This document shows positions 11,131 to 59,845 of a stretch of 64,000 nucleotides of DNA, one piece after another. Source of the stretch: Bacillus sp. 123MFChir2 (lineage in GTDB: Bacteria > Bacillota > Bacilli > Bacillales > Bacillaceae_G). Position numbers and translations under genes: made by a program. The stretch's first letter is position 1, and each line of letters begins with the position of its first letter. The stretch lies in the NCBI RefSeq assembly GCF_000383235.1, contig NZ_KB910925.1, forward strand, positions 62,001 to 126,000, in the 5' to 3' direction. The notes under the pieces are model-generated. The model was not told the origin of the DNA and did not search any database. It saw only the letters and a list, made by a program, of their open reading frames with translations.

Positions 11131-11238
11131 TTGGCTAAAAACAAAAATGAAAACAAGAAAAAACAACCACAAAGCAAGCAAAACAAACCAGAAACAGGAA
11201 ATCCGAAATTAGATGGACCAAATTTTCCTGCGACATAA
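11131..11238 (+). CDS. sspM: Minor small acid-soluble spore protein, SspM-like
   Basis: A 35-codon reading frame from a TTG: a Lys/Asn/Gln-rich N-terminus (AKNKNENKKKQPQSKQ) and the tail PKLDGPNFPAT. The tail resembles the GPNRPST end of B. subtilis SspM, and its place between yppE and recU also fits. GGGAGGTG lies six bases before the TTG. Such proteins are made in the forespore. The stop codon TAA coincides with the first bases of a family B repeat (TAAAGTGAAACTTC), so the present C-terminus may have been set by repeat insertion. The subfamily name is less certain than coding status. Confidence 0.72.
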   Translation: MAKNKNENKKKQPQSKQNKPETGNPKLDGPNFPAT

Positions 11239-11425
11239 AGTGAAACTTCTATCAGTGAGCGTTTTTCTCACTGATGGTTAGTTGAACCAATCGGGCTCTT
11301 ACGGATGGTTTGTTTCCCTTCCTGCCCAAACTTCTTACCAACCGTTTGAGCGGGGTAAAGTGAAACTTCTATCAGTGAGCGTTTTTCTCACTGATGGTTA
11401 GTTGAACCAATCGGGCTCTTACAGG
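11236..11425 (+). repeat. Family B repeat in a 120-bp tandem duplication
   Basis: TAAAGTGAAACTTCTATCAG and the following bases at 11236-11302 recur identically at 11356-11422, an exact 120-base offset. Each copy has the hairpin TCAGTGA..TCACTGA. The spacer between copies (11303-11355) diverges. The first copy overlaps the stop codon of the spore gene at 11131-11238. This fills most of the gap before yppC. Confidence 0.85.
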
Positions 11426-11431
11426 TAGTTT

Positions 11432-11465
11432 AAATCCCGCTTTCCACAAAGCGGGATTTTTTTAT
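11432..11465 (+). terminator. Strong hairpin terminator, usable on both strands
   Basis: AAATCCCGCTTT-loop-AAAGCGGGATTT followed by a T7 run on the plus strand; A-richness on the left also permits minus-strand use for yppC, which ends 68 bases away. Confidence 0.8.
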
Positions 11466-11532
11466 TATATCATAAATATGAAACGCCTTACTTTATTGAA
11501 ATACAAACATTCTGCGCTCTCAATACCCCATG

Positions 11533-12534
11533 CTAAAAGAGGTTATTTAATGAAGCAAAGAAATGCAATTGCTTCTGTTTTTGCAAAAACCAATCTGTCA
11601 TTTCAACCTCCCCTTTCGGCTCTTCAAATAAAAACAGCTCTTCTACGTCCACTCCTGGCTGAAACCAATCTCTCTCTGCCTTACGGTGATGGGAAACAAC
11701 AGAAAATACATCACGAAGCTGTGGCGTATCTTGTTCTTTAGATAAATTCAAATATTGTTCATAATCGAATCTGGATCCCGTGTGAACTGTTTGAGAAGAA
11801 AATGTATAAAATAACTCCTTATAAGTTGGATGGAACAACAACCATGCTAATTGTTTTCCTAATTCAATTCTCTTTGTTAATATTTCAAATTGATGGACAG
11901 AAAAACCATATAAATTCCCCGCTATTGTCGGAAATATTACCGCACTAAAATGAAATAACTCTTGAAATTTAAACATTAATGTTTGAAAAATATGCTTTTG
12001 ATAAAAAGGATGCTCAATTACAGGTTCTTGAATTGTGCATTGTTCATTAATAATAAGAGCTGTCATAAGTCTTTCTTCTTTTTTTTGCTCCCAAAAACGA
12101 GACCATTCCCCTTCCATAAATACTGATACGGAAAACATTTGTAATAAATGGAATAATGACTTTTTCATTCGTTTACTATATTCGTACAATAACAGCTGTG
12201 GATATGCATCTAAAAAAATTAGCCAATTTGCACGTTCATACGTATGAAATAGCTGTTTCCGTATCTCCTTAGATAAAACCTTTGGATAATATTTTCCTTC
12301 TAAATCTGTCATATTCCAGCCTGCATTTCGAGATACCATACTAGCTAAAAATGACCAACGAATTTCTTTATTACGCTCATAATATTCTTTGTAAGCATGT
12401 GTACGCGAAATGTTGTCAACATTCGCAAGTCTCGTTTGTTGCTGAATATAATTTACAACCTCTTTTTCTTCATTCGTATAAGAATATATCTTTCTTTTTT
12501 GTCTTATTTTTTCATATTCACTTTGTGTAAACAC
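11533..12534 (-). CDS. yppC: YppC family protein (DUF2515)
   Basis: A 333-residue soluble protein of the DUF2515 family, which is restricted to Bacillaceae and has no established function. Visible family features include NISRTHAYKEYYERNKEIRW near residue 42, SMVSRNAGWNMTDL near 66, and a C-terminal HHRKAERDWF block. The start is GTG with GGAGGTGA eight bases upstream. It is divergent from recU-ponA with a 103-base intergenic region, the conserved yppC-recU-ponA arrangement of Bacillus. Confidence 0.88.
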   Translation of the reverse strand: MFTQSEYEKIRQKRKIYSYTNEEKEVVNYIQQQTRLANVDNISRTHAYKEYYERNKEIRWSFLASMVSRNAGWNMTDLEGKYYPKVLSKEIRKQLFHTYERANWLIFLDAYPQLLLYEYSKRMKKSLFHLLQMFSVSVFMEGEWSRFWEQKKEERLMTALIINEQCTIQEPVIEHPFYQKHIFQTLMFKFQELFHFSAVIFPTIAGNLYGFSVHQFEILTKRIELGKQLAWLLFHPTYKELFYTFSSQTVHTGSRFDYEQYLNLSKEQDTPQLRDVFSVVSHHRKAERDWFQPGVDVEELFLFEEPKGEVEMTDWFLQKQKQLHFFASLNNLF

Positions 12535-12637
12535 AATGCTTTCACCTCCTATCTCTCCAAAAAAATAGCCTATTTTTTATTTTTTTTGATATAATCACCT
12601 TTGTAAGTAATTCTATGCAATTTGGAGTGGACAAATT

Positions 12638-13243
12638 ATGACCATTCGTTATCCAAACGGAAGAAAGTATACTCAGACTCAACCAACCCATTACCTATCA
12701 CCTATAAGAAAACACACTTATAGTAACAGGGGGATGTCCCTTGAAGAGGAGTTGAATGAAACAAATCAATACTATTTAACTCACAATATTGCTTGTGTGC
12801 ATAAAAAGCCGACACCTCTTCAAATCGTAAAGGTCGATTATCCAAAACGAAGCGCTGCCGTAATTAAAGAAGCGTACTTTAAGCAACCTTCTACAACTGA
12901 TTACAACGGTGTATACAAAGGCAAGTACATTGATTTCGAAGCGAAAGAAACGCGAAATAAAACGAGCTTTCCTTTGCAAAACTTCCATCTTCATCAAATC
13001 AATCATATGAAGGAAGTATTAGCTCATAACGGGATTGCATTTGTTATTATTAAATTTACTCTTTACGATCAATTTTATTTATTGGAAGCGAAACATATCA
13101 TTACATTTTGGAATCGACAAGAAGATGGTGGACGTAAATCCATTACAAAAGAAGAAATAGAAGAATGTGGGTACTTATTACAATGCGGATATCATCCCCG
13201 TATTGATTATATTCACACACTAGACACACTTTATTTTTCGTGA
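12638..13243 (+). CDS. recU: Holliday junction resolvase RecU
   Basis: A 201-residue homodimeric endonuclease that cuts Holliday junctions during recombination and chromosome segregation. The catalytic core is visible: [20 protein letters not shown] around residues 87-106 carries the Asp, Glu and Lys of the nuclease site, with [10 protein letters not shown] after it. The N-terminal [10 protein letters not shown] and [17 protein letters not shown] segments are typical RecU. A TATAAT lies at 12590-12595. It is followed after 65 bases by ponA, the standard recU-ponA operon. Confidence 0.97.
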
Positions 13244-13308
13244 TAGAGTCAACAATAAGGCTCATTTTTCGACTTTTGGGGAGAAAATGAAAGGTAGGAG
13301 AAAGTATA

Positions 13309-15858
13309 ATGTCAGAAAATTATCGTTCTCGTGAAGAACGAAAACAAGTAAAAAAACAGAAGCAAGAACATCCTAAAAAAAAGAAACCTAAGAAAAAAGG
13401 TTCTTTTCTACGTAAATTTCTAATTGCCTGCTTATTAATCGGCATTGTGACACTAGTAGCTGGGGTTTCCGCTTTCTTTGTTATGGTAAAAGATGCTCCA
13501 AAACTAGATAAAGCAAAGCTTGAAGTCCCATTATCAACAAAATTTTATGATAAAGATGGAAAATTCCTCTATGAATACGGCGCTGAGAAACGAACGAAGA
13601 TCACATATGATCAAATTCCAAAAGTAGTAGAAAATGCCTTTATAGCTACAGAAGATTCACGCTTTTATGAGCACAATGGGATTGATTTTAAGCGTACGAC
13701 GAAAGCCATCTTCGAAAACGTAACAAGCGGTTTTGGTTCTCAAGGCGGTAGTACCATTACACAGCAAGTTATTAAAAACTATTTCTTGACGATGCAAAAA
13801 ACAACGAAACGTAAAGTACAAGAATGGTATTTATCTTACAAACTAGAGCAGCAATATTCAAAACATGAAATTCTAGAAATGTACTTAAACAAAATTAACT
13901 TAGGTAACCGCTCATACGGAATTGCAACTGCTGCACAAAATTATTATGGCAAAGAATTAAAAGATTTAAAATTAAATGAAGCAGCGCTGCTTGCAGGATT
14001 ACCACAAGGTCCTAGTAAATTTGATCCTACAAAGCAAGAAAATGTGAAAGCTGCCACTGAACGACGCGACACAGTATTATACTTAATGAACAGACATGGC
14101 TATATTACAAAGCAAGAGATGGACGATGCCAAGAAAATTCCAGTAACAGACGGTCTTAAACCAGCTCAAGAAGCAACGCAAATGCCATATCCAGCATTTA
14201 TAGATGGTGCCGTAAAAGAACTTGAGGCAGCAGATAAAGATGTAAACATTGGTTCTGATGGTCTTAATATTTATCTAACATTAGATACAAAAGCTCAAGA
14301 CTATGCGGATAAAATGTTGAACACAGAAGAAATCATTAACTACCCGGATGAAAAATTCCAAGGTGCATTCGTATTTATGGATACGGAAACAGGTGAAGTT
14401 CGTGCACTCGGAAGCGGACGCGGTGAAAATAAAGCAACATTTAAAGGGCAAAACATGGCTATTGACATGCAGCGCCAAGTTGGTTCAACAATGAAACCAG
14501 TCTTTGACTACGGCCCTGCTATTGAACACAAACAATGGTCTACGTATCATCAAGTTGATGACTCAACGTACTATTATGAAACCGATCGAAAACGAGAGGT
14601 TCGAAATTTTGACAACGGTCATAAAGGTATAATGTCTATGCGTGAAGCATTAGCGCAATCACGAAACGTTCCAGCTGTAAAACTTGCGAATGAAGTCGGA
14701 CGAGATAAAGCACAAGCTTTCGCTGAAGGACTTGGCTTTACATTTCCAAAAGGCGCAGTAGAATCAACAGCAATTGGTAGTAATGATTCTTCTCCTCTAA
14801 CAGTTGCAGGAGCATACGCAGCTTACGGCAGTGGTGGTGTATATCATAAACCACATTTCGTTACAAAAGTTGTCTATCCTGATGGGAAAGAAGTAAACTT
14901 TACACCAAAAGGAAAACGAGTAATGAAAGATTCTACAGCATACATGGTTACTGATATGATGCGTAGTGTTGTAAAATCTAGTACTGGTACTGGTAAAGCG
15001 GCAAATATCCCTTCATTAGACGTTGCTGGTAAAACAGGAACAACAAACTATGATGCTAAACAATTACGTGATTATGATTTCCCTGCTTCGGCAAGTCCTG
15101 ATAGTTGGTTTGCAGGTTTTACACCACAATATACAATGGCTGTATGGACAGGATATAATAAACAAAGTGAAGGATATATTGACAAAAATACCTCATCTAT
15201 CGCACAGCGTATGTTTAAAGCGATGATGAGTGAATTTGGAAGCGATACAGCTCGCTTTGAAATGCCAAGTAGTGTAGAACGCATCGGTAGCGAACTTTAT
15301 GTTAAAGGTGCGAAAAAAGATGATGTTCCAAAAATCAGTGTAGATGGACCAACTGGAATCACTCCATCATATGATGCGGCATCACAGACTATATCATTAA
15401 GTTGGTCTGCTTCATCCGATTCAGACGTATCTTATTCACTAAGCTATAAAGGTAGTGACGGGTCTAGCGGCAGTCCAAAAATAAGTGGTACAAGCGCATC
15501 AATTAGCGGTGTCAAACCTGGTGTTACTTATACTATCTCTCTTGTTGCGAAAAAGACTGGTGGTGCTAGTGACCCAGTAACAATAACATATGTAGTACCT
15601 GGCGGCGATGATACGAAGAAAAAAGCTGAGGAAGACGCAGCTAAGAAAAAAGCTGAAGATGACGCTAAGAAAAAAGCTGAAGATGACGCTAAGAAAAAAG
15701 CTGAAGATGACGCAGCTAAGAAAAAAGCTGAAGATGACGCAGCTAAGAAAAAAGCTGAAGATGACGCTAAGAAAAAGGCTGAAGAAGATAAACAAAAGCC
15801 TAATAACGGAACTACCACACCAACCACACCAACAGAACCAAATAAACCGAATCAATAA
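13309..15858 (+). CDS. ponA: Class A penicillin-binding protein 1 (PBP1A/1B)
   Basis: An 849-residue bifunctional murein synthase. A basic cytoplasmic tail is followed by one membrane segment (about 35-59). The GT51 domain shows EDSRFYEHNGID with the catalytic Glu near 115 and GGSTITQQ. The transpeptidase has STMK (Ser 393), SRN (451-453) and KTGTTN (575-580). After it lie an Fn3-like segment (about 670-765) and a charged tail of KKKAEDDA-type repeats, where B. subtilis PBP1 has a different low-complexity end. It is the known partner of GpsB, encoded nearby. In operon with recU. Confidence 0.97.
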   Translation: MSENYRSREERKQVKKQKQEHPKKKKPKKKGSFLRKFLIACLLIGIVTLVAGVSAFFVMVKDAPKLDKAKLEVPLSTKFYDKDGKFLYEYGAEKRTKITYDQIPKVVENAFIATEDSRFYEHNGIDFKRTTKAIFENVTSGFGSQGGSTITQQVIKNYFLTMQKTTKRKVQEWYLSYKLEQQYSKHEILEMYLNKINLGNRSYGIATAAQNYYGKELKDLKLNEAALLAGLPQGPSKFDPTKQENVKAATERRDTVLYLMNRHGYITKQEMDDAKKIPVTDGLKPAQEATQMPYPAFIDGAVKELEAADKDVNIGSDGLNIYLTLDTKAQDYADKMLNTEEIINYPDEKFQGAFVFMDTETGEVRALGSGRGENKATFKGQNMAIDMQRQVGSTMKPVFDYGPAIEHKQWSTYHQVDDSTYYYETDRKREVRNFDNGHKGIMSMREALAQSRNVPAVKLANEVGRDKAQAFAEGLGFTFPKGAVESTAIGSNDSSPLTVAGAYAAYGSGGVYHKPHFVTKVVYPDGKEVNFTPKGKRVMKDSTAYMVTDMMRSVVKSSTGTGKAANIPSLDVAGKTGTTNYDAKQLRDYDFPASASPDSWFAGFTPQYTMAVWTGYNKQSEGYIDKNTSSIAQRMFKAMMSEFGSDTARFEMPSSVERIGSELYVKGAKKDDVPKISVDGPTGITPSYDAASQTISLSWSASSDSDVSYSLSYKGSDGSSGSPKISGTSASISGVKPGVTYTISLVAKKTGGASDPVTITYVVPGGDDTKKKAEEDAAKKKAEDDAKKKAEDDAKKKAEDDAAKKKAEDDAAKKKAEDDAKKKAEEDKQKPNNGTTTPTTPTEPNKPNQ
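15614..15795 (+). repeat. Tandem repeat encoding the Lys/Ala/Asp tail of PBP1
   Basis: Units of 24 or 27 bases based on GCTAAGAAAAAAGCTGAAGA encode KKKAEDDA or KKKAEDDAA about seven times. Near-identical DNA copies imply recent expansion by slippage or recombination. Confidence 0.9.
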
Positions 15859-15872
15859 TTACGATAGTGAAA

Positions 15873-15910
15873 AAAGAAGCCATCTTCCTAACAGGAAGAT
15901 GGCTTCTTTT
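15873..15910. terminator. Bidirectional terminator between ponA and ypoC
   Basis: AGAAGCCATCTTCC-TAACA-GGAAGATGGCTTCT with flanking A and T runs serves both convergent genes. On the minus strand it overlaps the last codons of ypoC (stop at 15888), so the hairpin is partly coding. Confidence 0.9.
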
Positions 15911-25399: not shown

Positions 25400-25492
25400 A
25401 CTTTGTTTTAGCCTGTGACAGAATAGGGCCCTAACCGCTTCTATGCGCGGCCAGACACCCTCGTCCTCCCCTTAATCCAGTTTCACTTTACT
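25400..25492 (-). repeat. Dispersed repeat joining birA 3' end (families B and A)
   Basis: On the minus strand TAAAGTGAAACTGG (family B-like start) leads directly into a family A core: GGACGAGGGTGTCTGGCC..GCATAGAAGCGGTTAGGGCCC. The birA stop codon TGA is inside the TAAAGTGAAACT motif. Confidence 0.7.
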
Positions 25493-26463
25493 TCAATATC
25501 AGCGGAATGAATATGATGTACAACCCCGTCATGATCTTCAAGTATAAGGACACCATCAACTGTAATTCCTTTTGCAATTCCCGTGATTGTATTTGTCATC
25601 GTCCGCGCTGTAATTTCTTTTCCAATACTCACAGCGTAACTTTCCCAAAGAAGCTTAATCACTGAAAAACCGCGTTCTAAATATTCTTTATATAGCTTTT
25701 CCATCTGCAAGAAAATTTGCTGCATCAGCTCAGCTCGTACAATTGCTTTTCCTGACTCAATTGCTAAAGAAGTAGCTATGTGCTGGATATCCTCAGCAAA
25801 ATGTTCTTGCTTTTGATTCACATTAATGCCAATTCCAATAATAACAGCATTAATTTTATCAGGATCTGCTTGCATTTCTGTTAAAATGCCAACTACTTTC
25901 TTCCCATTAATTAAAATATCATTCGGCCATTTAATGCCAACGGAAAGATTTGTGCATTTTTCAATGGCCTGCGCTACGCTAACAGCAGCTAGCAATGTTA
26001 ATTGCGGTGCTTGATGAATCGGAATTGCCGGGCGCAAAATAATGCTCATCCATACTCCTGTCCCTTTTGGCGAGTACCACTTTCTGCTTAATCGGCCACG
26101 ACCAGCTGTTTGCTCTTCAGCAACAACAACGGCTCCTTCAGCCGCTCCTTCATAAGCAAGACGAGCTGCAATTTGCTGTGTAGATGTTACCGATTCTTCA
26201 AAGTATACCGTTCGGCCTAAAAACTCTGTTTGTAAACCAAGCTGAATTTCATTTGCCGTTACTTTATCTGGTTTACTTGCAATGCGATAACCTAAGCGTC
26301 GTACAGCCTCTAGTTCATATCCTTCTTCTCTAAGGACCTCCATATGTTTCCACACAGCTGTTCTTGAGCATCCAAGCTTCTCACTAATCGTTTGTCCCGA
26401 TAGAAATTCGCCTTTAGCTTCAGAAAAGATTTGCAATAACTGTTTTCTTATAGCAGATTGCAT
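25483..26463 (-). CDS. birA: Biotin protein ligase / biotin operon repressor BirA
   Basis: A 326-residue bifunctional protein. The N-terminal winged helix (about 1-65) contains LGCSRTAVWKHMEVL. The ligase domain has the biotinyl-AMP loop AGRGRLSRKWYS and KWPNDILINGKKVVGIL, and a C-terminal SH3-like part. It attaches biotin to carboxylases and represses bio genes. The start MQSAIRK has AAGGAG ten bases before it and overlaps the end of cca. The final codons and TGA stop coincide with a repeat motif, TAAAGTGAAACT. Confidence 0.97.
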   Translation of the reverse strand: MQSAIRKQLLQIFSEAKGEFLSGQTISEKLGCSRTAVWKHMEVLREEGYELEAVRRLGYRIASKPDKVTANEIQLGLQTEFLGRTVYFEESVTSTQQIAARLAYEGAAEGAVVVAEEQTAGRGRLSRKWYSPKGTGVWMSIILRPAIPIHQAPQLTLLAAVSVAQAIEKCTNLSVGIKWPNDILINGKKVVGILTEMQADPDKINAVIIGIGINVNQKQEHFAEDIQHIATSLAIESGKAIVRAELMQQIFLQMEKLYKEYLERGFSVIKLLWESYAVSIGKEITARTMTNTITGIAKGITVDGVLILEDHDGVVHHIHSADIEVK

Positions 26464-27641
26464 GTATGCAGCCACTCCTTTATACACTCTTTCTCATTTT
26501 TTAATCGTCCGTATACGACTTCTTCTTCAATTTTTTGCAATGCATTTGCAACCCATGGTCCTGCCTGTTCCTTTGACCACGATAATAAATCGTTACCACT
26601 AACTCGCAACTCTTGACGATTAAAAATTGGTAAATCATCATATATCTTCTCTACATGACTGGCATTCGAAATTAAATATGTATTCATAATTCCTTCATAT
26701 ACACGCTCTGCCATAACAGCAATGTCTTTCCCCGCTTTATATAATAAAAGCGCATCCCACTCTTGTTTTTCTCGTGCTTTTACATATAATAAAACGGATA
26801 CAATCTCTTTTATTTTTTTATTCGAGAATTTCCATTGTCGTAAAAAAACAGATGGATGCTCTTCTCTCATACAATATAAAAAGAACGCCCACGACTCAAT
26901 ATCGCTTTTGAAAAAGTCCCAATCAAACTCTGCTGCTTTTGCAATATACTCCCCGCACATTTGTAAATAAGGTAAATGCTCATATAATTTCGTTTCTACC
27001 AATAACTGAAGTGCTTTTGCACAATGTGTACCAACAAGTAACTTTTCAAACTCAACTACAATTCTTTCAATTGCGATATGTTCTAGTAAATGTCCATATT
27101 CTATAATGGCTTGTTTCGTTCCTTCTTCTAAGGTAAAACCTAGTGTACTAACAAAGCGAATACCGCGCATCATTCGAAGGGCATCCTCTTGAAAGCGGTC
27201 GACTGGGTTTCCAACAGTTGCAATTTCCTTCTTAACAATTGCTTCTTGTCCGCCAAATAAATCAACTATTTCTCCCGTTTCTTTCATCGCAATTGCATTT
27301 ATTGTAAAATCCCGGCGTTGCAAATCTTCATCCAACGAGCGAACAAATTGTACGCTCGTCGGACGCCGAAAATCTTCATAGTCACCTTCTGTTCGAAACG
27401 TTGTTACTTCATATGGAATATCTTCATGTAAAACAATAACCGTTCCGTGTTCAATTCCAACAGGAACGTGCCGCGGAAATAGACGCATTACATCTTTTGG
27501 CAAAGCAGATGTCGCAATATCCATATCTCCAATTGTTCTACCAATGATATAATCGCGCACGCTCCCACCTACAAAATATGCTTCAAAGCCGTTCTCTGTT
27601 AACGTCTTAATAACTGAAGCCGCTCGTTTAAATCGTTCCAT
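26448..27641 (-). CDS. cca: CCA-adding tRNA nucleotidyltransferase
   Basis: A 397-residue class II CCA enzyme. The catalytic head shows [11 protein letters not shown] and DMDIATSA (metal-binding DxD), with [27 protein letters not shown]-like [14 protein letters not shown], and [16 protein letters not shown]. The helical body and tail follow. It restores the 3' CCA of tRNAs. The start MERFKRAA was chosen since AAGGG lies nine bases upstream; its beginning overlaps bshA and its end overlaps birA, implying tight coupling. Confidence 0.97.
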
Positions 27642-31179: not shown

Positions 31180-31395
31180 TATATATAAATCCAAATTGGA
31201 TTTTGGGCACACAAGTCGCCGCCATGCTAAGCAAAAAGTAACCTGCTACTTTCTTCCTCTCTTTGTTTAAACATCGCATGTGGCAGAAATAGGAACTGAC
31301 CGCATCTACCCATGGTCAGATGCTCTCGTCCATCTAAAAGAAAAGGATTTTATGTCAGGTCTTCAATTTGTATTTATATATATGAAGTTTCCTTG
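31180..31395 (+). repeat. Dispersed repeat, family A copy 4
   Basis: In the gene-free stretch 31037-31470, this block has the family A order: GCCGCCATGCTAAGCAAAA, TTTGTTTAAACATCGCATG, GACCGCATCTACCCATGGTC, TGCTCTCGTCCATCTAAAA, TTTTATGTCAGGTCTTCAAT, ending in TTTATATATA. The rest of the gap must hold the divergent promoters of ypjD and the YitT-type gene. Confidence 0.8.
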
Positions 31396-32352: not shown

Positions 32353-32389
32353 CTATACGAGTCATTAAAAAACACATAAAAAAACTTTC

Positions 32390-32537
32390 TTTTTTATGGT
32401 GGACGAGAGTCTCTGGCCGCCCATAGAAGCGGTCAGGACTTTTTTTGGCCGCATGCGACGTTTCAAACAAAGCGAGAAAGCAAGTAGCGGGCTTGTTGTA
32501 TTTACATAGCAGCGACTTAGATGCTAAAACATTTAAT
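32390..32537 (-). repeat. Dispersed repeat, family A copy 5 (inverted)
   Basis: GGACGAGAGTCTCTGGCCGC then CATAGAAGCGGTCAGGACTT and GCATGCGACGTTTCAAACAAAG, ending CATAGCAGCGACTTAGATGC, is the inverse of the copy at 31180-31395. The two copies bracket ypjC in opposite orientations. The right end abuts the stop codon of the downstream UDG gene. Confidence 0.8.
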
Positions 32538-33169
32538 TAAATATGCTCCCTCAATTTTTCTAAATCCTCATAAATCAATTCCAATAAACTGCGATTATAA
32601 AAAATTGAAGCCGGATGGAATGTGGGGAAAATTGTATAAGCTTTCTCTGTCCAAGTATAGGTTGTGCTATTAGGATTTCCTAGTCGGCGAACAGGTTGCG
32701 TACACAATTGGCCATGCATCTCTGACACCTTTTTGTCGGAACCAACTAAACGTTTGAGGGCAATGTTTCCTAGTGTAACAATAATAGGCACTTGAATATG
32801 CTCAATTTCGTAATCTAAAATGGGAGCGTGAGCAAGTATTTCCTGCTGATTTGGCGTACGGTTGTATTTCCGCTTTACGATTTCTCCGTTCCGTTCTCGT
32901 TTCTCGCCCCATTTATACGGTCGACTACGCACTACACTCGTAATGTATACTTCTTCTCTCGTTATACTAATTCGCTTTAGAAAATCCATAAGTTGCTTAC
33001 CAGCTCTTCCGCTAAAAGGTATCCCGTTATGAATTTCTGTTTCCCCTGGCGCTTCTCCTACTAGCATCATTTTTGGATGTTGTGGCCCTTGTCCATATAC
33101 AAAACCTTCAACAGGATAGGGAGACATTCGCTCTCTCACTTGCTCCACTAATTGCTCTGGATATTTCAT
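32537..33169 (-). CDS. Uracil-DNA glycosylase superfamily protein (family 4/5-like, no Fe-S cysteines)
   Basis: A 210-residue protein with UDG motif A-like VGEAPGETEIHNGIPFSGRAGK near residue 38 and the C-terminal FHPAS motif (FPTFHPASIFYN). ITSVVRSRPYK and PIIVTLGNIALKRL also fit. Known family 4 enzymes have four cysteines for a 4Fe-4S cluster; only one Cys (in GQLCTQP) is seen, so it may belong to a cluster-less branch. The start MKYPEQL has AAGGGGTG six bases before it. Uracil removal activity is inferred. Confidence 0.85.
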   Translation of the reverse strand: MKYPEQLVEQVRERMSPYPVEGFVYGQGPQHPKMMLVGEAPGETEIHNGIPFSGRAGKQLMDFLKRISITREEVYITSVVRSRPYKWGEKRERNGEIVKRKYNRTPNQQEILAHAPILDYEIEHIQVPIIVTLGNIALKRLVGSDKKVSEMHGQLCTQPVRRLGNPNSTTYTWTEKAYTIFPTFHPASIFYNRSLLELIYEDLEKLREHI

Positions 33170-36437: not shown

Positions 36438-36602
36438 CCCCATTGCTTTTGGCGGGGAATTAGCCCACACTGATAAAAGTTTTACTTTATTATAGCAAAT
36501 TCCCTGCCTAAAATAGAAAAACTGACTACAAAGTTGTAGTCAGCTTTCATTGATCCCGCTATTCGCGGGCAGTATGCCCCCACTGATGGAAGTTTCACCT
36601 TA
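36438..36602 (-). repeat. Two family B repeat parts between ypjA and qcrC, with a terminator between
   Basis: On the minus strand a copy starts at the qcrC stop codon: TAAGGTGAAACTTCCATCAG then GGGGGCATACTGCCCGCGAA and TAGCGGGATC (36602-36551). A more diverged piece lies at 36494-36438 (TAAAGTAAAACTTTTATCAG, then GGGCTAATTCCCCGCC). Between them is the qcr terminator. The gap holds no gene. Confidence 0.7.
36516..36543 (-). terminator. Terminator of the qcr operon
   Basis: CTGACTACAA-AG-TTGTAGTCAG in plus-strand reading, with a T5 tract on the minus strand, 57 bases after the qcrC stop codon. Confidence 0.8.
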
Positions 36603-37367
36603 TTTTTTATTGTATTTCTCGATAAATTCCGATAATTTCTTTAACTCTTCATCCGTTCCTTTAAAAATACCTTTTGGCATTGCACCCTTTCCATCTTTTG
36701 CAATTTTTGCAATTTCTTCTGGTTTTAATGTTAAATTTTGCAATGCTGGTGCAGCTGCTCCCCCTTGCAAGTTTTCACCGTGACATGTTAAACATGTATT
36801 TTTTTGCATAACCTTATAACCGTCATCATTTTTATCAACTTGTACAGTTTTTACAATTGCTCCTTGCTTTTTCGCTGCTGCCCAGTCATGCGTAGCAACA
36901 GATTCCCACGTTAGGAAAACGATAGATGCTAACGCTAACAACATAAATCCTGTTGCAACTGGACGTTTAAATGGCCCGCGTTCTGGCCCCCGATCAAGAA
37001 ATGGAGCAAGTAATAATGCGCCAAATGCGATGCCTGGCATAATAAATGCACCAATAATCGTATATGGACCAGATGCATAAGAATACTTTAACAATTGATA
37101 CAGAAATAAGAAATACCAGTCTGGAAGTGGTATATATCCTGTATCTGTAGGATCTGCAATTCTTTCTAATGGCGATGGATGCGCTACGGTCAAACAAAGA
37201 TAGCCAATTAAAAAGACGGCACCAACCATCCACTCTTTTAATAAAAAGTTTGGCCAAAATGCTTCTGTTTTCCCTGGATATTCTGAATAATCTTTCGGAA
37301 TATTCGGTTTTCTAACAGCAGGTACTCGCGAATCTCCGACAAACTTCATCCCTTTGCCGCGATGCAT
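36600..37367 (-). CDS. qcrC: Menaquinol:cytochrome c reductase, cytochrome c/b subunit
   Basis: A 255-residue fusion: an N-terminal subunit-IV-like part with about three membrane segments (WMVGAVFLIGYLCLTVAH, YTIIGAFIMPGIAFGALLLAP, GFMLLALASIVFLTW) and PLPDWYFLFLYQLLKY, then a cytochrome c domain with the haem motif CLTCHGENLQGG and a later axial-Met region GAMPKG. It passes electrons from menaquinol to cytochrome c in the membrane. Its TAA is the first triplet of a family B repeat. Third gene of qcrABC. Confidence 0.97.
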   Translation of the reverse strand: MHRGKGMKFVGDSRVPAVRKPNIPKDYSEYPGKTEAFWPNFLLKEWMVGAVFLIGYLCLTVAHPSPLERIADPTDTGYIPLPDWYFLFLYQLLKYSYASGPYTIIGAFIMPGIAFGALLLAPFLDRGPERGPFKRPVATGFMLLALASIVFLTWESVATHDWAAAKKQGAIVKTVQVDKNDDGYKVMQKNTCLTCHGENLQGGAAAPALQNLTLKPEEIAKIAKDGKGAMPKGIFKGTDEELKKLSEFIEKYNKK

Positions 37368-46556: not shown

Positions 46557-46639
46557 CGGTTACTCTCCTTTACTTCAGTATTTATGTAACACTATATCAT
46601 AACCTTTATTGTTTCGTAACTATATAAGTACGAATTGAA

Positions 46640-46945
46640 GAAACGACCTAAAAACCCTCTTTCTTCTTAGGGAAGACAAGAGCATCTGGCCTTGCATAGA
46701 AGCGGTCAGGACCTTTTCCTGCCACATGCGAGGTTTAAAACAAAGACAGAAAGCACGTAGCGGTCATTGGATTCTGCATAGCAGTGGCTTATAAAGAAAA
46801 GCGGAAGCGGCTTGCTCAGAACAAGAGGGGGATGGAGCTTCTGACATAGAGGCGCTTTTTGCCTCGGCGGAAGACGCGAAGCCACCGATTGTTCTAGCCG
46901 CTGGAGCTGGATTATAAAGAAAAGCAGAGCTAGACAAAGATGTTG
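46640..46945 (-). repeat. Composite dispersed repeat: family A copy plus complete family C module
   Basis: The gene-free stretch 46557-47054 contains, at 46640-46792, an inverted family A copy (GGGAAGACAAGAGCATCTGG, GCATAGAAGCGGTCAGGACC, GCCACATGCGAGGTTTAAAA) and, at 46793-46945, a family C module that reads on the minus strand TGTCTAGCTCTGC..CCAGCTCCAGCGGCTAGAACAATCGGTGGCTTC and ends GCTTCCGCTTTTC. B. subtilis has cheR in this gap; none is here. The right end holds the ndk terminator. Confidence 0.75.
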
Positions 46946-48586: not shown

Positions 48587-48752
48587 ATCGTTCACCTTAA
48601 CCTAAAACTTCTTTTCTATTTTATCCCGCTCTAATCAATAATAAAACTTCCATCTTAAAATTATCAGAAAATAAAAAAGGGGGGTGGGAGAAAATTCCAA
48701 TACGCTCCCGATTGCTAAAGGCTTTCCATCATCAAAAAATACATTTTCTTAT

Positions 48753-49460
48753 TTACTTCGGTTTATATCCTAAATGCATTGCTGCTACTCCAAAAGTAAA
48801 CGGCTTTACTTGTACTTTTTCTAATCCAGCTTCCTCAAACATACGAGCCAATTCTTTCATCCCTGGAAATGTACTTGCAGATTCTTGTAGCCATGAATAT
48901 TCTTTGTAACTTTTCGCAAATAACTTTCCAAATAACGGCATGATAAATTTAAAATATAATAAGTAGCCTTGGCGAATTCCAATCATTGTCGGTTGAGATG
49001 TTTCTAAACAAATAACCTTTCCACCTGGTTTTACAACACGCGTCATTTCCTTTAAAACCTGCATATAATCTGGTACGTTCCGGAGCCCAAATCCAATTGT
49101 GACATAATCAAACATATTATCCTCAAATGGCAATTCCATCGCATTACCATGAAGTAATTCTACTTGATTTAATTGTAAGGCAGCCACTTTCTCTTTTCCA
49201 ACAGAAAGCATATTTTTACTAAAATCTAATCCATATACCTTCCCGCTAGAACCGACTGCATCAGCAAGCCCAATCGTCCAGTCAGCCGTTCCACAACATA
49301 CATCAAGCGCTATGCTGCCCGGTTGAACATCCATAATTCGCATTGTTTCTTTGCGCCATGCTTTATGTCTTTGAAAACTAATAACCGAATTCATTACATC
49401 GTATTTATTATATATCTTCTCAAATACGTCATGTACTCTTTCTTCTTTTGATTGTTGCAT
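48753..49460 (-). CDS. menG: Demethylmenaquinone methyltransferase
   Basis: A 235-residue SAM-dependent methyltransferase of the UbiE/MenG family for the last step of menaquinone synthesis. Motifs: [16 protein letters not shown] (SAM site), [35 protein letters not shown], and [15 protein letters not shown]. Start [16 protein letters not shown] is characteristic. It lies 35 bases downstream of hepS. Confidence 0.97.
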
Positions 49461-50239: not shown

Positions 50240-50381
50240 AAAAATCACCCTTGTTTTCTAATTCATAAAACCTATTATAACACATTCATTCATTTTTCTA
50301 TAAATAAAACTTGACGCAACAAACCAAAGTAAAAAAAGCGATCTTTATTTCATCTCATCTTAAACATTAAATCGTTATAAA

Positions 50382-50464
50382 ATAAGATGAAACTTCCATC
50401 TACCTTCTTTGATTCTTCCTCAATCCTCAGAGGGGGGTCTTACTGTCCATGAATAGCGGGATAA
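50382..50464 (+). repeat. Dispersed repeat, family B copy in the hepS-folE gap
   Basis: AATAAGATGAAACTTCCATC at the start and GAATAGCGGGATAAAA at the end match family B ends; the internal part is TACCTTCTTTGATTCTTCCT. It takes most of 50240-50493. No TRAP (mtrB) reading frame is present there. Confidence 0.65.
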
Positions 50465-50490
50465 AAAAAGAAAAGCAGTTTCCTGCTTTC
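50462..50490 (-). terminator. Terminator after folE
   Basis: GGAAAGCAG-GAAA-CTGCTTTTC followed by T7 on the minus strand, directly after the folE stop codon. Confidence 0.85.
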
Positions 50491-54126: not shown

Positions 54127-54147
54127 TAGAAATCCGTCCTTTAGTTT

Positions 54148-54420: not shown

Positions 54421-54660
54421 TGTAGCTACTCAGTTACTTTATGAAAAACCGACAGAAAAACATTTTTTAAACGGGCGAGAGGGACTAGCCATGCATAGAA
54501 GCGGGTAGTGCCTTTTCCTGCCACGTGCAAGGTTTGAAAACAAAAGTAGACAATAAGTACATGCTCCTGCCCTGTTTGCATGACAGCAGTCTATATGCAA
54601 AAAAACGAATTTGAATCATACCCTTTTCTAAAAGGTATAGCTGAGTAGTTACAATAAATA
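54421..54660 (-). repeat. Dispersed repeat, family A copy 7 with inverted ends
   Basis: The element spans TGTAGCTACTCAGTTAC at the left and AGCTGAGTAGTTACA at the right, an imperfect inverted repeat, enclosing the family A core (GGGCGAGAGGGACTAGCCATG, CATAGAAGCGGGTAGTGCC, GCCACGTGCAAGGTTTGAAA). It is the only copy where both ends are clear and so may define the complete unit (about 240 bp). It fills most of 54352-54829, which has no convincing gene. Confidence 0.75.
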
Positions 54661-54711
54661 TATATACTCTCAAAATGCTCAGCGGTACGTATTCACTTAT
54701 ATTGAAACGAA

Positions 54712-54748: not shown

Positions 54749-54829
54749 GACCAAACGCTCCCACAAACAGCTCATATTCATACCTTCATAGTATCGTATG
54801 CAATGCATATAACAATGGTTTCTCATACT

Positions 54830-55081
54830 TTATTTTTTAAACATTTTACTCAATGAACTAAAGTCAGTTGGCATATTATTATTAATAATCGCATTTATAA
54901 TTTGCTCTTCTTTTTCTTTTGATACATCTCTTCCCGCCATTGTTGCAACCTGATGAATTAACTGACGTAACACTTTTTCATCACGTAAATTTGAATTTTG
55001 AACCGAAGAGGCTAATTTAAAAATATCTTCTTTATTTACTTTGGATTCCTTTTCAATATTGTTGAATAAATTATTATCCAC
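54830..55081 (-). CDS. Stage VI sporulation protein F-like
   Basis: An 83-residue soluble helical protein: MDNNLFNNIEKESKVNKEDI, LASSVQNSNLRDEKVLRQLI and SKEKEEQIINAIINNN fit the SpoVIF family of Bacillus, linked to coat assembly. The start is a GTG with GAGGGTGA upstream; extra N-terminal codons in a longer frame have no site. It lies upstream of yphE and downstream of gpsA, an additional gene relative to the B. subtilis order as I recall it. Confidence 0.8.
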   Translation of the reverse strand: MDNNLFNNIEKESKVNKEDIFKLASSVQNSNLRDEKVLRQLIHQVATMAGRDVSKEKEEQIINAIINNNMPTDFSSLSKMFKK

Positions 55082-55152
55082 TTTGTTCACCCTCTCATGT
55101 AATCTACACTCCATCGTATGCAGAAAATAAAGAATGGTGAAAAAACCCAAAA

Positions 55153-55194
55153 GAAAAAGCTGTACAAATGTCTTTTTACATTTGTACAGCTTTT
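55153..55194. terminator. Strong terminator after gpsA
   Basis: A perfect 18-bp stem, AAAAAGCTGTACAAATGT with its complement and a six-base loop, directly after the gpsA stop codon; T-rich flanks exist on both strands. Confidence 0.9.
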
Positions 55195-55195
55195 T

Positions 55196-56218
55196 TTACA
55201 GCAAGTCTGGAATCGCTTCTACTTCGTGTTTACGCACACGTCCCATCAACATTCCAACAGCATCTTTTACATTTTTTCCATTAAATAACACATCATATAA
55301 AACAGTTGTAATCGGCATTTCGACATCCATTTTCTTAGCCATCTCATATGCTGCTTTCGTTGTCCGTACGCCTTCAACAACCATTCCCATATTGTCTAAT
55401 ACTTCTTGTAACGAGCAACCTTTACCAAGCATGTTACCAGCACGCCAATTTCGACTATGAACGCTCGTACATGTTACAATTAGGTCACCCATACCTGTCA
55501 GGCCAGCAAACGTTAATGGGTTCCCACCCATTTTACGTCCTAAACGAGCAATTTCTGTTAATCCTCGCGTCATAAGGGCTGCCTTCGCATTATCTCCTAA
55601 GCCAATTCCATCAGTAATACCCGCCGCAAGGGCAATGATATTTTTTAGAGCTCCGCCAAGTTCAACTCCAATAATATCTGGGTTTGTATATACACGGAAA
55701 TAGCTATTCATAAATAAGTCCTGAACCTCTTCAGCTGCTTCCATACGCTTTGCAGCTGATGTAACTGTTGTAGCTTGGCGCAATCCAACTTCTTCTGCAT
55801 GACTCGGCCCTGATAAAACAACCACATCGCGAATGAGATGTGCCGGAATTTCTTCTTCAATCACTTCCGAAATACGCTTTGAAGTTCCTGGTTCAATCCC
55901 TTTACTCGCGTGAATCCATGTAATTGGCTGCGAAACAAATGTTTTCATATTTTGCAATACTTCTCGATATGCCTTTGTAGGTACAACGAGAAGTACTGTA
56001 TCAACCCCTACTAATGCCTCTTCTAAAGAAGAGTAAGCAACGATGCTGGCTGGCAGTGTAATCCCCGGAAGATAACGACTATTCTCATGCTTTTCATTCA
56101 TTTCATCCATAAGTTCTGGTCGATTCCCCCAAAGACGTACATCATGGCCGTTGTCAGCTAATACCATTGCTAACGCCGTTCCCCAGCTACCTGCTCCTAC
56201 TACTGTGATTTTTTTCAT
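55196..56218 (-). CDS. gpsA: Glycerol-3-phosphate dehydrogenase [NAD(P)+]
   Basis: A 340-residue enzyme making sn-glycerol-3-phosphate for phospholipids. Motifs: VVGAGSWGTALAMVLADNGH, VVLSGPSHAEEV, GVELGGALKNIIALAAGITDG with the catalytic Lys, and MGDLIVTCTS. Length is typical. It lies 18 bases downstream of der, in operon. Confidence 0.97.
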   Translation of the reverse strand: MKKITVVGAGSWGTALAMVLADNGHDVRLWGNRPELMDEMNEKHENSRYLPGITLPASIVAYSSLEEALVGVDTVLLVVPTKAYREVLQNMKTFVSQPITWIHASKGIEPGTSKRISEVIEEEIPAHLIRDVVVLSGPSHAEEVGLRQATTVTSAAKRMEAAEEVQDLFMNSYFRVYTNPDIIGVELGGALKNIIALAAGITDGIGLGDNAKAALMTRGLTEIARLGRKMGGNPLTFAGLTGMGDLIVTCTSVHSRNWRAGNMLGKGCSLQEVLDNMGMVVEGVRTTKAAYEMAKKMDVEMPITTVLYDVLFNGKNVKDAVGMLMGRVRKHEVEAIPDLL

Positions 56219-56236
56219 AAAATCACATCCTCTCCA

Positions 56237-57547
56237 TTAGTCTCGTGCTCTTGCAATAACTTTAATTGGTGTTCCTACGAAACCAAACGCATCGCGCAGA
56301 CGATTTTTCAAGAAGCGCTCATATGAGAAGTGCAGTAACTCTGGATCATTTACGAACACAACAAATGTCGGTGGTTTCACCGCGACTTGTGTTGCATAGA
56401 AAATTTTCAAACGTTGTCCATTATGCGTTGGTGTTGGATTCATTGCAACAGCATCCATAATTACATCGTTTAATACATTTGTTTGTACACGAATACTATG
56501 ACTTGCATTTACCTCATTAATAACAGGAAGTAGTGTGTGTGTACGTTTTCTCGTTTTGGCAGATAAGAATACGATTGGTGCGTAATCTAAAAATTGGAAA
56601 TGAGCACGAATATTCTCTTCGAATTCCTTCATCGTTTTCTCATCTTTTTCAACTGCGTCCCATTTATTTACAACAATAATAACAGCACGACCTGAATCAT
56701 GGGCATATCCAGCAATTTTTTTATCTTGTTCAATGATTCCTTCTTCACCATCTAAAACAACTAAAACAACATCAGAGCGTTCAATTGCTCGAAGTGCTCG
56801 AAGTACACTATACTTTTCTGTACTTTCATATACTTTTCCTTTTTTGCGCATTCCTGCGGTATCAATGATAACGTAATCTTGTCCATCTTTACTGTACGGT
56901 GTATCAACTGCATCACGTGTAGTACCCGCTACATTACTAACGATTACACGTTCTTGACCAAGCAATGCATTTACCATTGATGATTTCCCAACGTTCGGGC
57001 GACCAATTAAACAGAATTTAATCGTTTCATCATCGTATGGTTCTTCTTCAATTTGCGGGAAATGTTTTGCTGCTTCGTCTAATAAGTCCCCTAAACCTAA
57101 ACCGTGCGTTCCAGATATAGGAAACGGCTCTCCAAATCCTAATGCATAAAAATCGTAAATATCGCTGCGCATCTCTGGATTATCTACCTTATTCACAGCT
57201 AATACAACTGGCTTTTTAGAACGATACAAAATCTTTGCAACTTCTTCATCCGCAGCTGTCACACCGTCGCGACCATTTGTCATAAAAATGATAACATCGG
57301 CTTCATCAATCGCAACTTCTGCTTGTTGACGAATTTGTGTCAAGAATGGCTCGTCTCCAATATCAATTCCACCTGTATCAATAATGTTAAACTCATGATT
57401 TAACCATTCTCCTGCGCTATATATACGATCTCTTGTTACACCAGGAATATCTTCAACAATTGACACTCTTTCTCCAACAATTCTATTGAAAATAGTAGAT
57501 TTCCCCACATTTGGGCGTCCTACTATTGCCACTACCGGTTTTGGCAT
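56237..57547 (-). CDS. der: Ribosome-assembly GTPase Der (EngA)
   Basis: A 436-residue protein with two GTPase domains: [17 protein letters not shown] (9-16 P-loop), NKVD; and [26 protein letters not shown]; then a KH-like C-terminal domain. It assists 50S maturation. Same length as B. subtilis EngA. Followed by gpsA. Confidence 0.98.
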
Positions 57548-57584
57548 ATACTTTCATCCCTTCTATTTGCTTCTGTTATTATGT

Positions 57585-57614
57585 AAAAAACCCTTCTTTG
57601 TGCAAGAAGGGATT
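57585..57614 (-). terminator. Terminator between the YIEGIA pair and der
   Basis: CCCTTCTT-loop-AAGAAGGG followed by T6 on the minus strand, 54 bases past the small gene's stop codon; der therefore likely has its own promoter. Confidence 0.8.
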
Positions 57615-57667
57615 TGCATTCCAGAATATTTCTCTTCGTATCAAAACACCTCATATTATAACACATT

Positions 57668-57856
57668 TTAAGAATGTTTCACAATAATATATAAGTTCTC
57701 TTGCAAACGGTGGGCAATTCCATCTAAAATCGCTTCTAAATTACTAGCAACAAATTCCATTTCATCTACTGTCTCACATACAAATAACGGCGCCCCGCCA
57801 GCGAACTTTTCCGGAATTGTTGTAATAACAGCAAGAATACATTTTTCTAATATCAC
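57668..57856 (-). CDS. Small protein coupled to the YIEGIA membrane protein
   Basis: A 62-residue protein (ILEKCILAVITTIPEKFAGGA, VCETVDEMEFVASNLEAI). The start is a GTG overlapping the stop of the YIEGIA gene (GTGA), implying equimolar coupled synthesis. I recall database names describing such proteins as a capping subunit for YIEGIA proteins; from the sequence alone only the coupling is visible. Function otherwise unknown. Confidence 0.8.
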   Translation of the reverse strand: MILEKCILAVITTIPEKFAGGAPLFVCETVDEMEFVASNLEAILDGIAHRLQENLYIIVKHS

Positions 57857-58746
57857 CCTTTATCTCCCCTTCCATTTGGGGCCTCAGAAGACATATGAAT
57901 CGCACTTTCTAATGTTGGAACATTTCCAATGACCTGAATCGCTTTATTTACATCCTGATCTTGCGGCAAAACAAATATACCTATTCTTCCATCATTTAAA
58001 TCACGTTTCGCAAGCGGTACAAGTGCAGGTGTTCCAGAATCTCGATATACACCAAGCGCAACAGATACATCATGCAAAATCGCCTGTCTTTGACCAAGGT
58101 TTGCTAATGTTACCCGAGCATCAATTGATTTTGGTTTTAAAATAAATCCCATACCATACTTCATAATTTCTTTTTGCCTTACTGGTAAACCGATATTCAT
58201 AATATAAATATTATCAACATAAAGGCCTGCTCCTTCAAAATGCAACGAGGCATGCTCAACTTCAACAAGGTCACGTAGCCGTTTACCAGACATCAACTTT
58301 TTCGCGAAAAAGAAACTTATGATTCCAGCTAAAATACCGGCATACCACGATTTAAATCCTAAATAAGCGAAAGTAGCTATGAAAGAAGTTAACATTGCTA
58401 AATAATTACGACTCTCAAACACAATTGCAATTCCCTCAATATATGTATTGCCCCTAGGAACAAGTTCATACCCATCTAATTGCTGCAATGTATTACGCTC
58501 CATATTCCGCACATCACGAAACTGCGATGCAGCTAATGTCAGAAATGTAATAGCAGAGAAATCCTTTTTCAAAATAGCTGGAATTGCTACCGCCCCAAGA
58601 GCAGCCGCAATAATTCCCATTGCAATATGAATAATCTTTCCATGTAAACGAGTTGGATACTGCCTTGTATCCGTTTGAAGCATTAAAATTCGTGTGACAG
58701 TTCCAACGGTTACTCCAAGCAACATAGCTGATGTATACGAATTCAT
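57853..58746 (-). CDS. yphB: YIEGIA-family membrane protein
   Basis: A 297-residue protein with several membrane segments in the N-terminal half (SAMLLGVTVGTVTRILML, IAMGIIAAALGAVAIPAIL, YLAMLTSFIATFAYLGF, GILAGIISFFFA) and the eponymous YIEGIA motif near residue 102 (GNTYIEGIAIVFESR). A soluble C-terminal half (190-297) follows. Conserved in spore formers and placed where yphB lies in B. subtilis. Spore-related function is inference; some relatives are thought to be proteases. Confidence 0.85.
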   Translation of the reverse strand: MNSYTSAMLLGVTVGTVTRILMLQTDTRQYPTRLHGKIIHIAMGIIAAALGAVAIPAILKKDFSAITFLTLAASQFRDVRNMERNTLQQLDGYELVPRGNTYIEGIAIVFESRNYLAMLTSFIATFAYLGFKSWYAGILAGIISFFFAKKLMSGKRLRDLVEVEHASLHFEGAGLYVDNIYIMNIGLPVRQKEIMKYGMGFILKPKSIDARVTLANLGQRQAILHDVSVALGVYRDSGTPALVPLAKRDLNDGRIGIFVLPQDQDVNKAIQVIGNVPTLESAIHMSSEAPNGRGDKG

Positions 58747-58749
58747 AAA

Positions 58750-59349
58750 TTAACCTTGTCCCTCCTTCACTTGCTTTTGCTTAAATTGTTCTGTGTATGC
58801 CATTATTTTTCCAATTCCGTATAAAAGACTACAGAACATCGTGGACACAGCAATCATATTAAAAAATTGTAAATCCCCTAATTGATAAGGAAAATTGAAT
58901 GTCTTTAAAATAAAAGCTACAAACAACTCACCTTGCAACGCCCCTACATATAATCCCCATATACGTAATAGACGGTCCCTATGTAATAAAACAGATGTAT
59001 AAACAAGAATACTACTTAACATCCAGGTACGATCTACAACAATCCAAATCGGGTCATAGAGTTCGATTAAAGAAAAGCTTGCATATAGCATCGCGATTAT
59101 AAGTGCACATAGTAAAGTATAGACCTTTTTCCATACTGAATATGTCGCAATTCCAATAAATGAGATTCCCGCTAACAAAAGGGCGTTTACCGATATTGTA
59201 ATAGAAGTAAATGAAATTACTGCTTGCGAACAAATAATAAATAATAAAATGACCGCACTAAGCTTAAGTCTAACTGTATCTTTTCTCCAAAAAAACGTCG
59301 TAACAATCCAGCTCACCCATGCTAAAAAATAAAAATAACCACCTTCCAA
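58750..59349 (-). CDS. yphA: YphA family membrane protein
   Basis: A 199-residue polytopic protein with six or so membrane segments (YFYFLAWVSWIVTTFFW, LSAVILLFIICSQAVI and others). The start is TTG with AGGAGGTG five bases upstream, giving exactly the length I recall for B. subtilis YphA; an apparent ATG eight codons earlier overlaps that site. It is followed after three bases by the YIEGIA gene. Function unknown. Confidence 0.82.
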   Translation of the reverse strand: MEGGYFYFLAWVSWIVTTFFWRKDTVRLKLSAVILLFIICSQAVISFTSITISVNALLLAGISFIGIATYSVWKKVYTLLCALIIAMLYASFSLIELYDPIWIVVDRTWMLSSILVYTSVLLHRDRLLRIWGLYVGALQGELFVAFILKTFNFPYQLGDLQFFNMIAVSTMFCSLLYGIGKIMAYTEQFKQKQVKEGQG

Positions 59350-59465
59350 GTGAACACCTCCTATTATTTCCATTATGGGAATTGTTTATGAAAAATAATC
59401 ATCTTTTATCGCTGCATATTTTTAAAAATAACAGCAACACTTTGTACTAAGGAGGTGGAAACACC

Positions 59466-59600
59466 ATGGGTAAAGATCGTCAAGAAAAGAAATTGAAACA
59501 ATCAAGGCGCGTAGAATCCGACCGCAGCCAATCATTACAATATCCTGGTGCAACAGGACTCGATACACCGGAGCAAGCACGAAAACAAAATCAGCATTAA
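59466..59600 (+). CDS. ypzI: YpzI family small protein
   Basis: A 44-residue basic hydrophilic protein (MGKDRQEKKLKQSRRVESDR, then QYPGATGLDTPEQARKQNQ) matching YpzI of B. subtilis, which lies in the same place next to yphA. AAGGAGGTG lies eight bases before the ATG, a near-perfect site. Followed by a terminator. Function unknown. Confidence 0.88.
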   Translation: MGKDRQEKKLKQSRRVESDRSQSLQYPGATGLDTPEQARKQNQH

Positions 59601-59604
59601 AACA

Positions 59605-59643
59605 AAGAAACAGCCAACATATCATTGGCTGTTTCCTTGTTTT
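59605..59643 (+). terminator. Terminator after ypzI
   Basis: AAACAGCCAA-CATATCA-TTGGCTGTTT followed by CCTTGTTTT on the plus strand, within eight bases of the stop codon. Confidence 0.85.
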
Positions 59644-59679
59644 CACATATTAATAACTATATGAATCCATTTTAATTTT

Positions 59680-59845
59680 CCGACATATAGATTGCTGCTA
59701 TGCAGAAAAAAAGGAGCTTCCACTCGCTTTCTGACTTTGTTTAAACAGTAAAAGGTGACCGCTTCTATGCATGGCCAGATGCTCTTGCCCACCTAAAAAA
59801 AGATGGTTTTATGTCAGGTTTTTAATTTGAATTTATATAGTTTAT
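59680..59845 (+). repeat. Dispersed repeat, family A copy 8, running into the LAL gene end
   Basis: CGACATATAGATTGCTGCTA, then GACCGCTTCTATGCATGGCC, AGATGCTCTTGCCCACCTAA and TTTTATGTCAGGTTTTTAAT. The terminal TTTTTAATTTGAATTTATATA, shared with the copies near 700 and 31380, contains the stop codon and last codons of the minus-strand regulator gene. Confidence 0.8.

Follow-up and report, generated by a model that had tools for sequence, protein, structure and literature searches.

Two families of dispersed repeats, here called A and B, meet the stop codons of several genes in a 64,000-nt stretch of Bacillus sp. 123MFChir2 (hereafter the window), and the explanation that we favour is that family B has the pentamer ATAAA as its insertion site, with ATAAA left at each of its ends. 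A reading frame that ends in A-TAA-A would thereby stay whole, with its stop codon now placed inside the left pentamer, and, because ATAAA contains TAA and an insertion at the stop leaves the protein intact, the surviving copies would accumulate at this stop register; the duplication is seen at one locus compared with three empty relatives, and selective survival of the copies is what we infer. Family A, a miniature inverted-repeat transposable element (MITE), would survive best downstream of genes, and the in-frame TAA in its terminal repeat could replace a lost stop codon, as two distant homologues suggest for a LAL-type regulator. An active function in the 3' untranslated region (3'-UTR) would not be required. 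We give this explanation as a whole a probability of about three in four.

The BirA protein of the window shares 78% identity with its counterparts in Ectobacillus funiculus, E. panaciterrae and Bacillus sp. 165, which places this chromosomal stretch in an Ectobacillus-like species. Copy numbers given for the window refer to its 64,000 nt, and the whole-genome statistics come from E. panaciterrae (G002) and from the genome G009, neither of which is the window's own genome. The relatives compared through individual loci were E. funiculus (G001), E. panaciterrae (G002), Bacillus sp. 165 (G003) and E. antri (G004); searches of the genus and of the family added further genomes, including G009.

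Duplication of ATAAA by family B at one locus

Family B begins with GTGAAACTTC, is about 155 bp long and rich in hairpins, and carries ATAAA on either side; in E. panaciterrae its sequence runs ATAAAGTGAAACTTCCATCAGTGGGGG ... TGCGTGATAAA. Full-length copies measure approximately 150-165 bp and shorter deletion forms occur too. The target site is seen at locus L359, where the filled site of G009 reads TTATTTT-ATAAA-GTGAAACTTC ... GCGGG-ATAAA-TAATT. The empty sites read TTATTTT-ATAAA-TTATT in G006 and G007, where the matches to the two flanks overlap by exactly 5 bp, and TTATCTT-ATAAA-TTTTT in G010; ten genomes were searched for this locus and the remaining seven gave partial matches only. The insertion has thus duplicated ATAAA exactly. 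In filled and empty sites alike, the TAA within ATAAA is the in-frame stop codon of an ABC transporter gene. The left ATAAA is present in 30 of 61 copies in G002 and in 59 of 75 in G009, and the right one in many of the copies listed. Outside the pentamer no flank consensus was found in 40 clean-ended copies, the flanks being only AT-rich.

Among the 150 candidates scored per genome, a covariance-model search at an E value of 0.01 returned at least 64 matches in E. panaciterrae, 12 in Bacillus sp. 165, 3 in E. funiculus and 2 in E. antri. At an E value of 1e-5, 7 of the 19 genomes searched from this family had matches, G009 standing at the top with at least 76 (150 of 1,926 candidates scored). 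Removal of opposite-strand duplicates (three in G002, one in G009) left the 61 and 75 copies used here, two of the 61 being supplied by near-identical contig ends. The hosts comprise E. panaciterrae, E. funiculus, E. antri and others, together with one Pseudalkalibacillus plasmid. Plasmid searches gave no match of family B in B. cereus, a phage search gave no match, and among viral contigs one carries GTGAAACTTCCATCAGTGGG.

Several further observations concern the spread of this family. In the Klebsiella grimontii plasmid pNY3A, a gammaproteobacterial record, some 64 bases (L451, record positions 221561-221624) match the left part of family B with 83-87% identity, for which transfer and an assembly mix-up are both possible. 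In tandem arrays (L157, 11124-11601; L161, 15838-16083; window, 11235-11461) neighbouring copies share one RTAAR pentamer, as if one copy had inserted at the end of another. A variant beginning ATAAGATGAAACTTCATC is embedded in a larger repeated context, with AGAACC or GCTGCCACC upstream and AGGCAAAAAGCGCC or a close sequence downstream, which seems to have been co-amplified (L162, L178, L179, L182, L185, L190, L194, L195, L219, L220 and L221). A scan of approximately 1.0 Mb revealed five more short family B left ends, outside the counts given above, and ten unlisted ends of family A with no larger element recognised there; no autonomous partner of either family was recognised in the DNA scanned.

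Copies at the stop register and near gene ends

In 5 of 61 copies in G002 and 11 of 75 in G009, the codirectional upstream gene has its stop codon in the left pentamer, as TAA or, once, as TAG. This appears as a spike at a gene-end offset of -4 (5/43 in G002, where composite, tandem and duplicate copies, 18 in all, were taken out of the 61, and 11/75 in G009), every other codirectional offset up to 40 nt having at most two. Stop codons make up 3.4% of the allowed ATAAA sites in G002 and 4.3% in G009, and the copies with a left ATAAA lie at stops in 4 of 30 cases versus 1.0 expected in G002 and in 10 of 59 versus 2.5 in G009 (pooled P 1e-5). The frequency at the stop register is 2.4 to 4 times the prediction from intergenic ATAAA sites. 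None of the copies lies inside a called gene (0/61 in G002 and 0/75 in G009). One stop-register copy (L321, 5511-5667) has ATAGA in place of ATAAA, so that the PhoU-domain gene at this locus ends in TAG inside the pentamer.

A preliminary description of the window had proposed that the repeats prefer gene 3' ends, and the distances to stop codons, measured in G002 and G009, bear this out for both families. Within 20 nt of a stop codon facing them lie 14 of 61 family B copies in G002 (null 5.6-6.9%, binomial P 5e-6 to 6e-5 by choice of null) and 21 of 73 in G009 (null 8.3-10.5%, P 3e-7 to 1e-5), and the corresponding figure for family A in G002 is 13 of 116 (null 4.9-6.9%, P 0.005 to 0.06).

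Family A, a MITE enriched near stop codons

In E. panaciterrae family A is a non-coding sequence of about 195 bp with the ends TATATAAATGC and TATATAAGTCC in inverted orientation and terminal inverted repeats TATATAA; it is a MITE. The model search, with 150 candidates scored per genome, gave at least 153 matches in G002 and at least 47 raw matches in G004. Out of the former 149 were used, 124 of them in the stretches read and 116 of these not at stretch ends. Within 50 nt, 32 of the 116 copies face a stop codon (null 13-15%) and 8 have a start codon (null 16-19%); family A thus occurs near stops roughly twice as often as chance predicts and is depleted near starts. The ends and flanks would fit a duplication of TA in several copies and do not fit it in one.

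Repeats and gene ends in the window

The window holds GTGAAACTTC four times, compared with 0.15 expected from shuffling. TAAAGTGAAACT stands at 4912, 11236 and 11356 on the plus strand and at 25479-25490 on the minus strand, and TAAGGTGAAACTTC at 36589-36602 on the minus strand. Six copies of family B are present, some of them diverged or short. The preliminary description had placed the stop codons of four genes (an SspM-like gene, qcrC, birA and a LAL regulator) within repeat sequence, and the letters confirm all four positions.

The SspM-like open reading frame (11122-11238, plus strand), so labelled in that description, encodes 38 amino acids and has no match in Pfam or NCBIfam. Its TAA (11236-11238) forms bases 2-4 of the ATAAA of the first copy of a tandem pair at 11235-11354 (plus strand; 91.8 bits with the family B covariance model R1, match given as 11235-11364); the second copy, with the left end GTAAAGTGAAACTTC, lies at 11355-11461 (plus strand; 43.3 bits, match 11365-11461). 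Four relatives without the repeat (G002-G005) have the C-terminus PAT followed by the stop, as in the window, and the gene was not recognised in the two loci read in E. funiculus. The gene for QcrC, the cytochrome b/c subunit (36600-37367, minus strand), has its TAA in AATAAGGTGAAACTTC, within the left ATAAG of a short derivative of the form ATAAG...ATCAA (36545-36603, minus strand) located between the qcrC stop and a terminator-like hairpin. As R1 scores this derivative at only 13.1 bits (E 0.11), it was placed in family B by its common left end and its right hairpin. No element directly follows the stop in any of the 19 QcrC relatives read. The C-terminus YNKK is found in the window and in four Ectobacillus relatives (G001, G002, G004 and G005), the other 15 relatives ending differently; a terminator-like hairpin lies 3' of qcrC in those four, and in the window a hairpin of the same kind sits behind the element. 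The proposal of the preliminary description that the repeats can reset C-termini therefore finds no support for QcrC and the SspM-like protein, which keep their last residue in repeat-free relatives (four from Ectobacillus for QcrC, the four named above for the SspM-like protein), and family B did not reset these two ends. A further case, additional to those listed before, is menG, encoding demethylmenaquinone methyltransferase (48753-49460, minus strand), whose TAA (48753-48755) runs straight into the ATAAG of a diverged copy of family B (48615-48752, minus strand; 36.6 bits, E 8.5e-9, match 48615-48766).

The birA gene (25483-26487, minus strand) ends GTA AAG TGA, with the TGA inside TAAAGTGAAACT, a 12-base left-end sequence match (25479-25490, minus strand) that may be a remnant of family B. 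The remainder of a copy is absent, and a family A fragment comes next (25401-25474, minus strand; 22.1 bits with the model R2, E 6e-6). The window's BirA has the C-terminus SADIEVK*, where three of four close relatives have SADIEI* and the fourth, Bacillus sp. 165, has SADIEIR*; five more distant relatives end in IQL, IQF, IEIG and, twice, ELSTRK. The difference of one residue falls within the variation among relatives. The LAL regulator is a likely instance of a reset end. This LAL-type (LuxR C-terminal) protein of 859 amino acids (59822-62401, minus strand) has the tail GIINYINSN*, and its gene ends TAT ATA AAT TCA AAT TAA, the terminal repeat of a family A copy at 59660-59842 (minus strand; 120.5 bits, used in building R2). 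The protein's final five residues, together with the stop (YINSN*), are read from TATATAAATTCAAATTAA. Since four Ectobacillus genomes gave matches of only helix-turn-helix size, two distant plasmid homologues were used for comparison; those of Paenibacillus polymyxa (38% identity) and Enterococcus raffinosus (29%) end GLLY* and HII*, earlier than the window protein. It is likely, on this comparison, that family A reset the C-terminus of the LAL regulator.

Two further stops had been described as abutting copies. That of the UDG gene coincides with the end of one, its bases 32537-32539 being the last ones of a family A match at 32364-32539 (plus strand; 70.6 bits) between the convergent YitT family and UDG genes; the UDG gene has no long match in the relatives and hence no empty site for comparison. 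The stop of the GNAT gene (723) is near only, lying 20 nt from the family A copy at 505-702 (minus strand; 112.9 bits, used in building R2).

The remaining family B copies are a full-length one with the left end ATAAA at 4911-5066 (plus strand; 128.5 bits, E 1e-36, used in building R1) and one with an internal deletion at 50382-50466 (plus strand; 25.1 bits, E 3e-5, match 50333-50470). Those of family A are found at 6590-6761 (minus strand; 61.3 bits), at 31184-31384 (minus strand; 139 bits, full length with both terminal repeats and used in building R2), at 46618-46789 (plus strand; 82.4 bits) and at 54442-54616 (plus strand; 63.5 bits). None of the window repeats matched Rfam at the gathering score; one family B copy gave matches at chance level only, and one family A copy gave none.

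A third repeat family, CTAGCTCCAGCGGCTAGAAC ... AGAAAAGCGGAAGCGGCTTG, occurs in the window at 510-538, 9818-9844 and 46795-46911, where it adjoins two family A copies. In E. panaciterrae a related sequence is found directly 3' of the YitT-like stop and a few bases past the SspM-like stop, which fits the view of gene ends as tolerated places. A PBP1A-like gene (13309-15858) carries tandem AAGAAAAAAGCTGAAGATGAC repeats at its end (15592-15788).

Discussion

Insertion at ATAAA together with tolerance at gene ends is the simplest reading of these data, and several observations weigh against it. At locus L342 the filled site is bounded by ATAAA at the left and ATAAT at the right, and the empty sites in the 8 matching of 10 genomes read ATAAT (6), ATAAG (1) and TTAAT (1), so that the element itself may supply the left pentamer there. 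When the comparison is confined to sites no more than 150 nt from the end of an upstream gene, the excess at the stop register is gone in G002 (5/25 versus 81/503, P 0.38). Divergent regions are depleted of family B in G002 (15% versus a null of 29%) and not in G009 (27% versus 26%), so selection on survival would not be uniform. Eight other gene ends fall inside family B copies, at depths of 70, 70 and 72 bases (G002) and of 1, 1, 2, 9 and 26 bases (G009), counted from the side at which the gene enters. Furthermore, the genes were called by a simple codon-usage caller, which is blind to genes broken by insertion, and the family B counts are minima, with 150 candidates scored per genome out of 1,127-1,882 in G001-G004 and 1,926 in G009. 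It is doubtful that target choice by family B itself amounts to a stop-codon safe harbour, in which the element takes over the upstream TAA, leaves the protein as it was and, in at least one genome, does this above the rate set by the motif. Somewhat harder to credit is an insertion machinery that would be actively drawn to stop codons or to the 3' ends of translated sequence (action on transcribed DNA would be one way) and so find a safe harbour for family B. Such a machinery would account for the almost threefold enrichment of the stop register that persists in G009 even within 150 nt of gene ends (11/24 versus 67/405, P 8e-4), and for the divergent regions not being avoided in that genome, but the lack of enrichment in E. 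panaciterrae by the same comparison and the lack of any sequence signal beyond ATAAA both speak against it.

It would be improbable, in our judgement, that the repeats are 3'-UTR modules under selection for ending or stabilising mRNAs. The hairpins predicted for family B are strong (-40 to -82 kcal/mol in four single copies), and the repeats bcr1-bcr3 of B. cereus are frequently part of UTRs or of regions between operon genes (PMC3446304). The family B hairpins, however, have no T-run behind them, no gene 3' end lies on the left of 28 of 61 copies in G002 and 42 of 73 in G009, and qcrC retains its own terminator-like hairpin, common to its relatives, behind the inserted copy. A hand-drawn hairpin structure pairs 88.8% of cells in 46 copies and contains 18 double-change cells versus 9.2 in shuffles (3 of 500 as high), but slid partners give 10 to 18; because a slide of two columns also yields 18, we count the covariation as weak. 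RNAalifold on a free alignment finds nearly no consensus (-0.8 kcal/mol), and nothing tested lent support to a terminator role. Least probable is the idea that the elements matter through the resetting of C-termini. The LAL tail, the lysine and new stop that birA gains, and five gene ends sitting 9 to 72 bases inside family B copies would agree with it; the unchanged QcrC and SspM-like ends, the variation of the BirA end among nine relatives free of the repeat, and the fact that, of 124 family A copies in E. panaciterrae, only one contains the 3' end of a gene, with an overlap of a single base, do not. In the main, genes retain their original ends, and only a few seem to have acquired an altered tail.

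Family B resembles bcr1 and further group A repeats known from the B. cereus group in its similar length, its stem-loops and its MITE-like character, its ATAAA ends being the complement of TTTAT. By the title of a bcr1 paper, bcr1 is reportedly specific to that group. Family B has the approximately 150-170 bp with predicted stem-loops and the ATAAA (TTTAT) ends of bcr1, with which it is compared here by description, but it is found in Ectobacillus and relatives. We do not file it as bcr1, because it is present in Ectobacillus spp. and on a Pseudalkalibacillus plasmid and so is not restricted to the B. cereus group. Among the genomes searched none is known to be B. cereus; the BshB proteins of G007 and G009 are diverged from PDB 2ixd of B. 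cereus. For bcr1, lengths of 147 and 167 bp are listed (PMC2267715), and a TTTAT motif of the bcr repeats is tied to mobility (PMC6542083).

That repeats supply stop codons is already a published phenomenon: the termini of GTAG-tagged repetitive extragenic palindromes (REPs), palindromes of 20-40 bp, often give a TAG stop codon to flanking open reading frames (PMC3733652). The sharing of stop codons by family B is of the same kind, whereas family B is about 155 bp long, uses ATAAA and TAA and makes a 5-bp target duplication. It begins ATAAAGTG and is not a 20-40 bp palindrome tagged GTAG or CGTC, and it was not assigned to the GTAG REPs. Family A, small, non-coding and with TATATAA inverted ends, recalls the bacterial MITEs with TA ends (NEMIS, ERIC, RUP), for which a fusion of a MITE to an open reading frame is known (PMC2229807), but it differs in having no Rfam match for the copy searched and no autonomous partner in the DNA scanned. 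The SPRITE repeats of Streptococcus pneumoniae are enriched near gene 3' ends, as family B is, and their authors suggest insertion tolerance or terminator co-option (PMC3049150); SPRITE is terminator-like with a U-rich tract, which family B lacks. A literature search, made largely without full texts, returned no publication about these repeats in Ectobacillus, about the two families or about the exact ATAAA register.

The reading that we prefer offers a concrete reason for the presence of repeats at gene ends, namely that a stop codon forms part of the landing site, and insertion would therefore cost little. For annotators it carries the caution that a common sequence over a stop codon need not be a functional 3' element. 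It further suggests relatives or analogues elsewhere in the Bacillaceae for the bcr1-like repeats, which have been described as confined to the B. cereus group.

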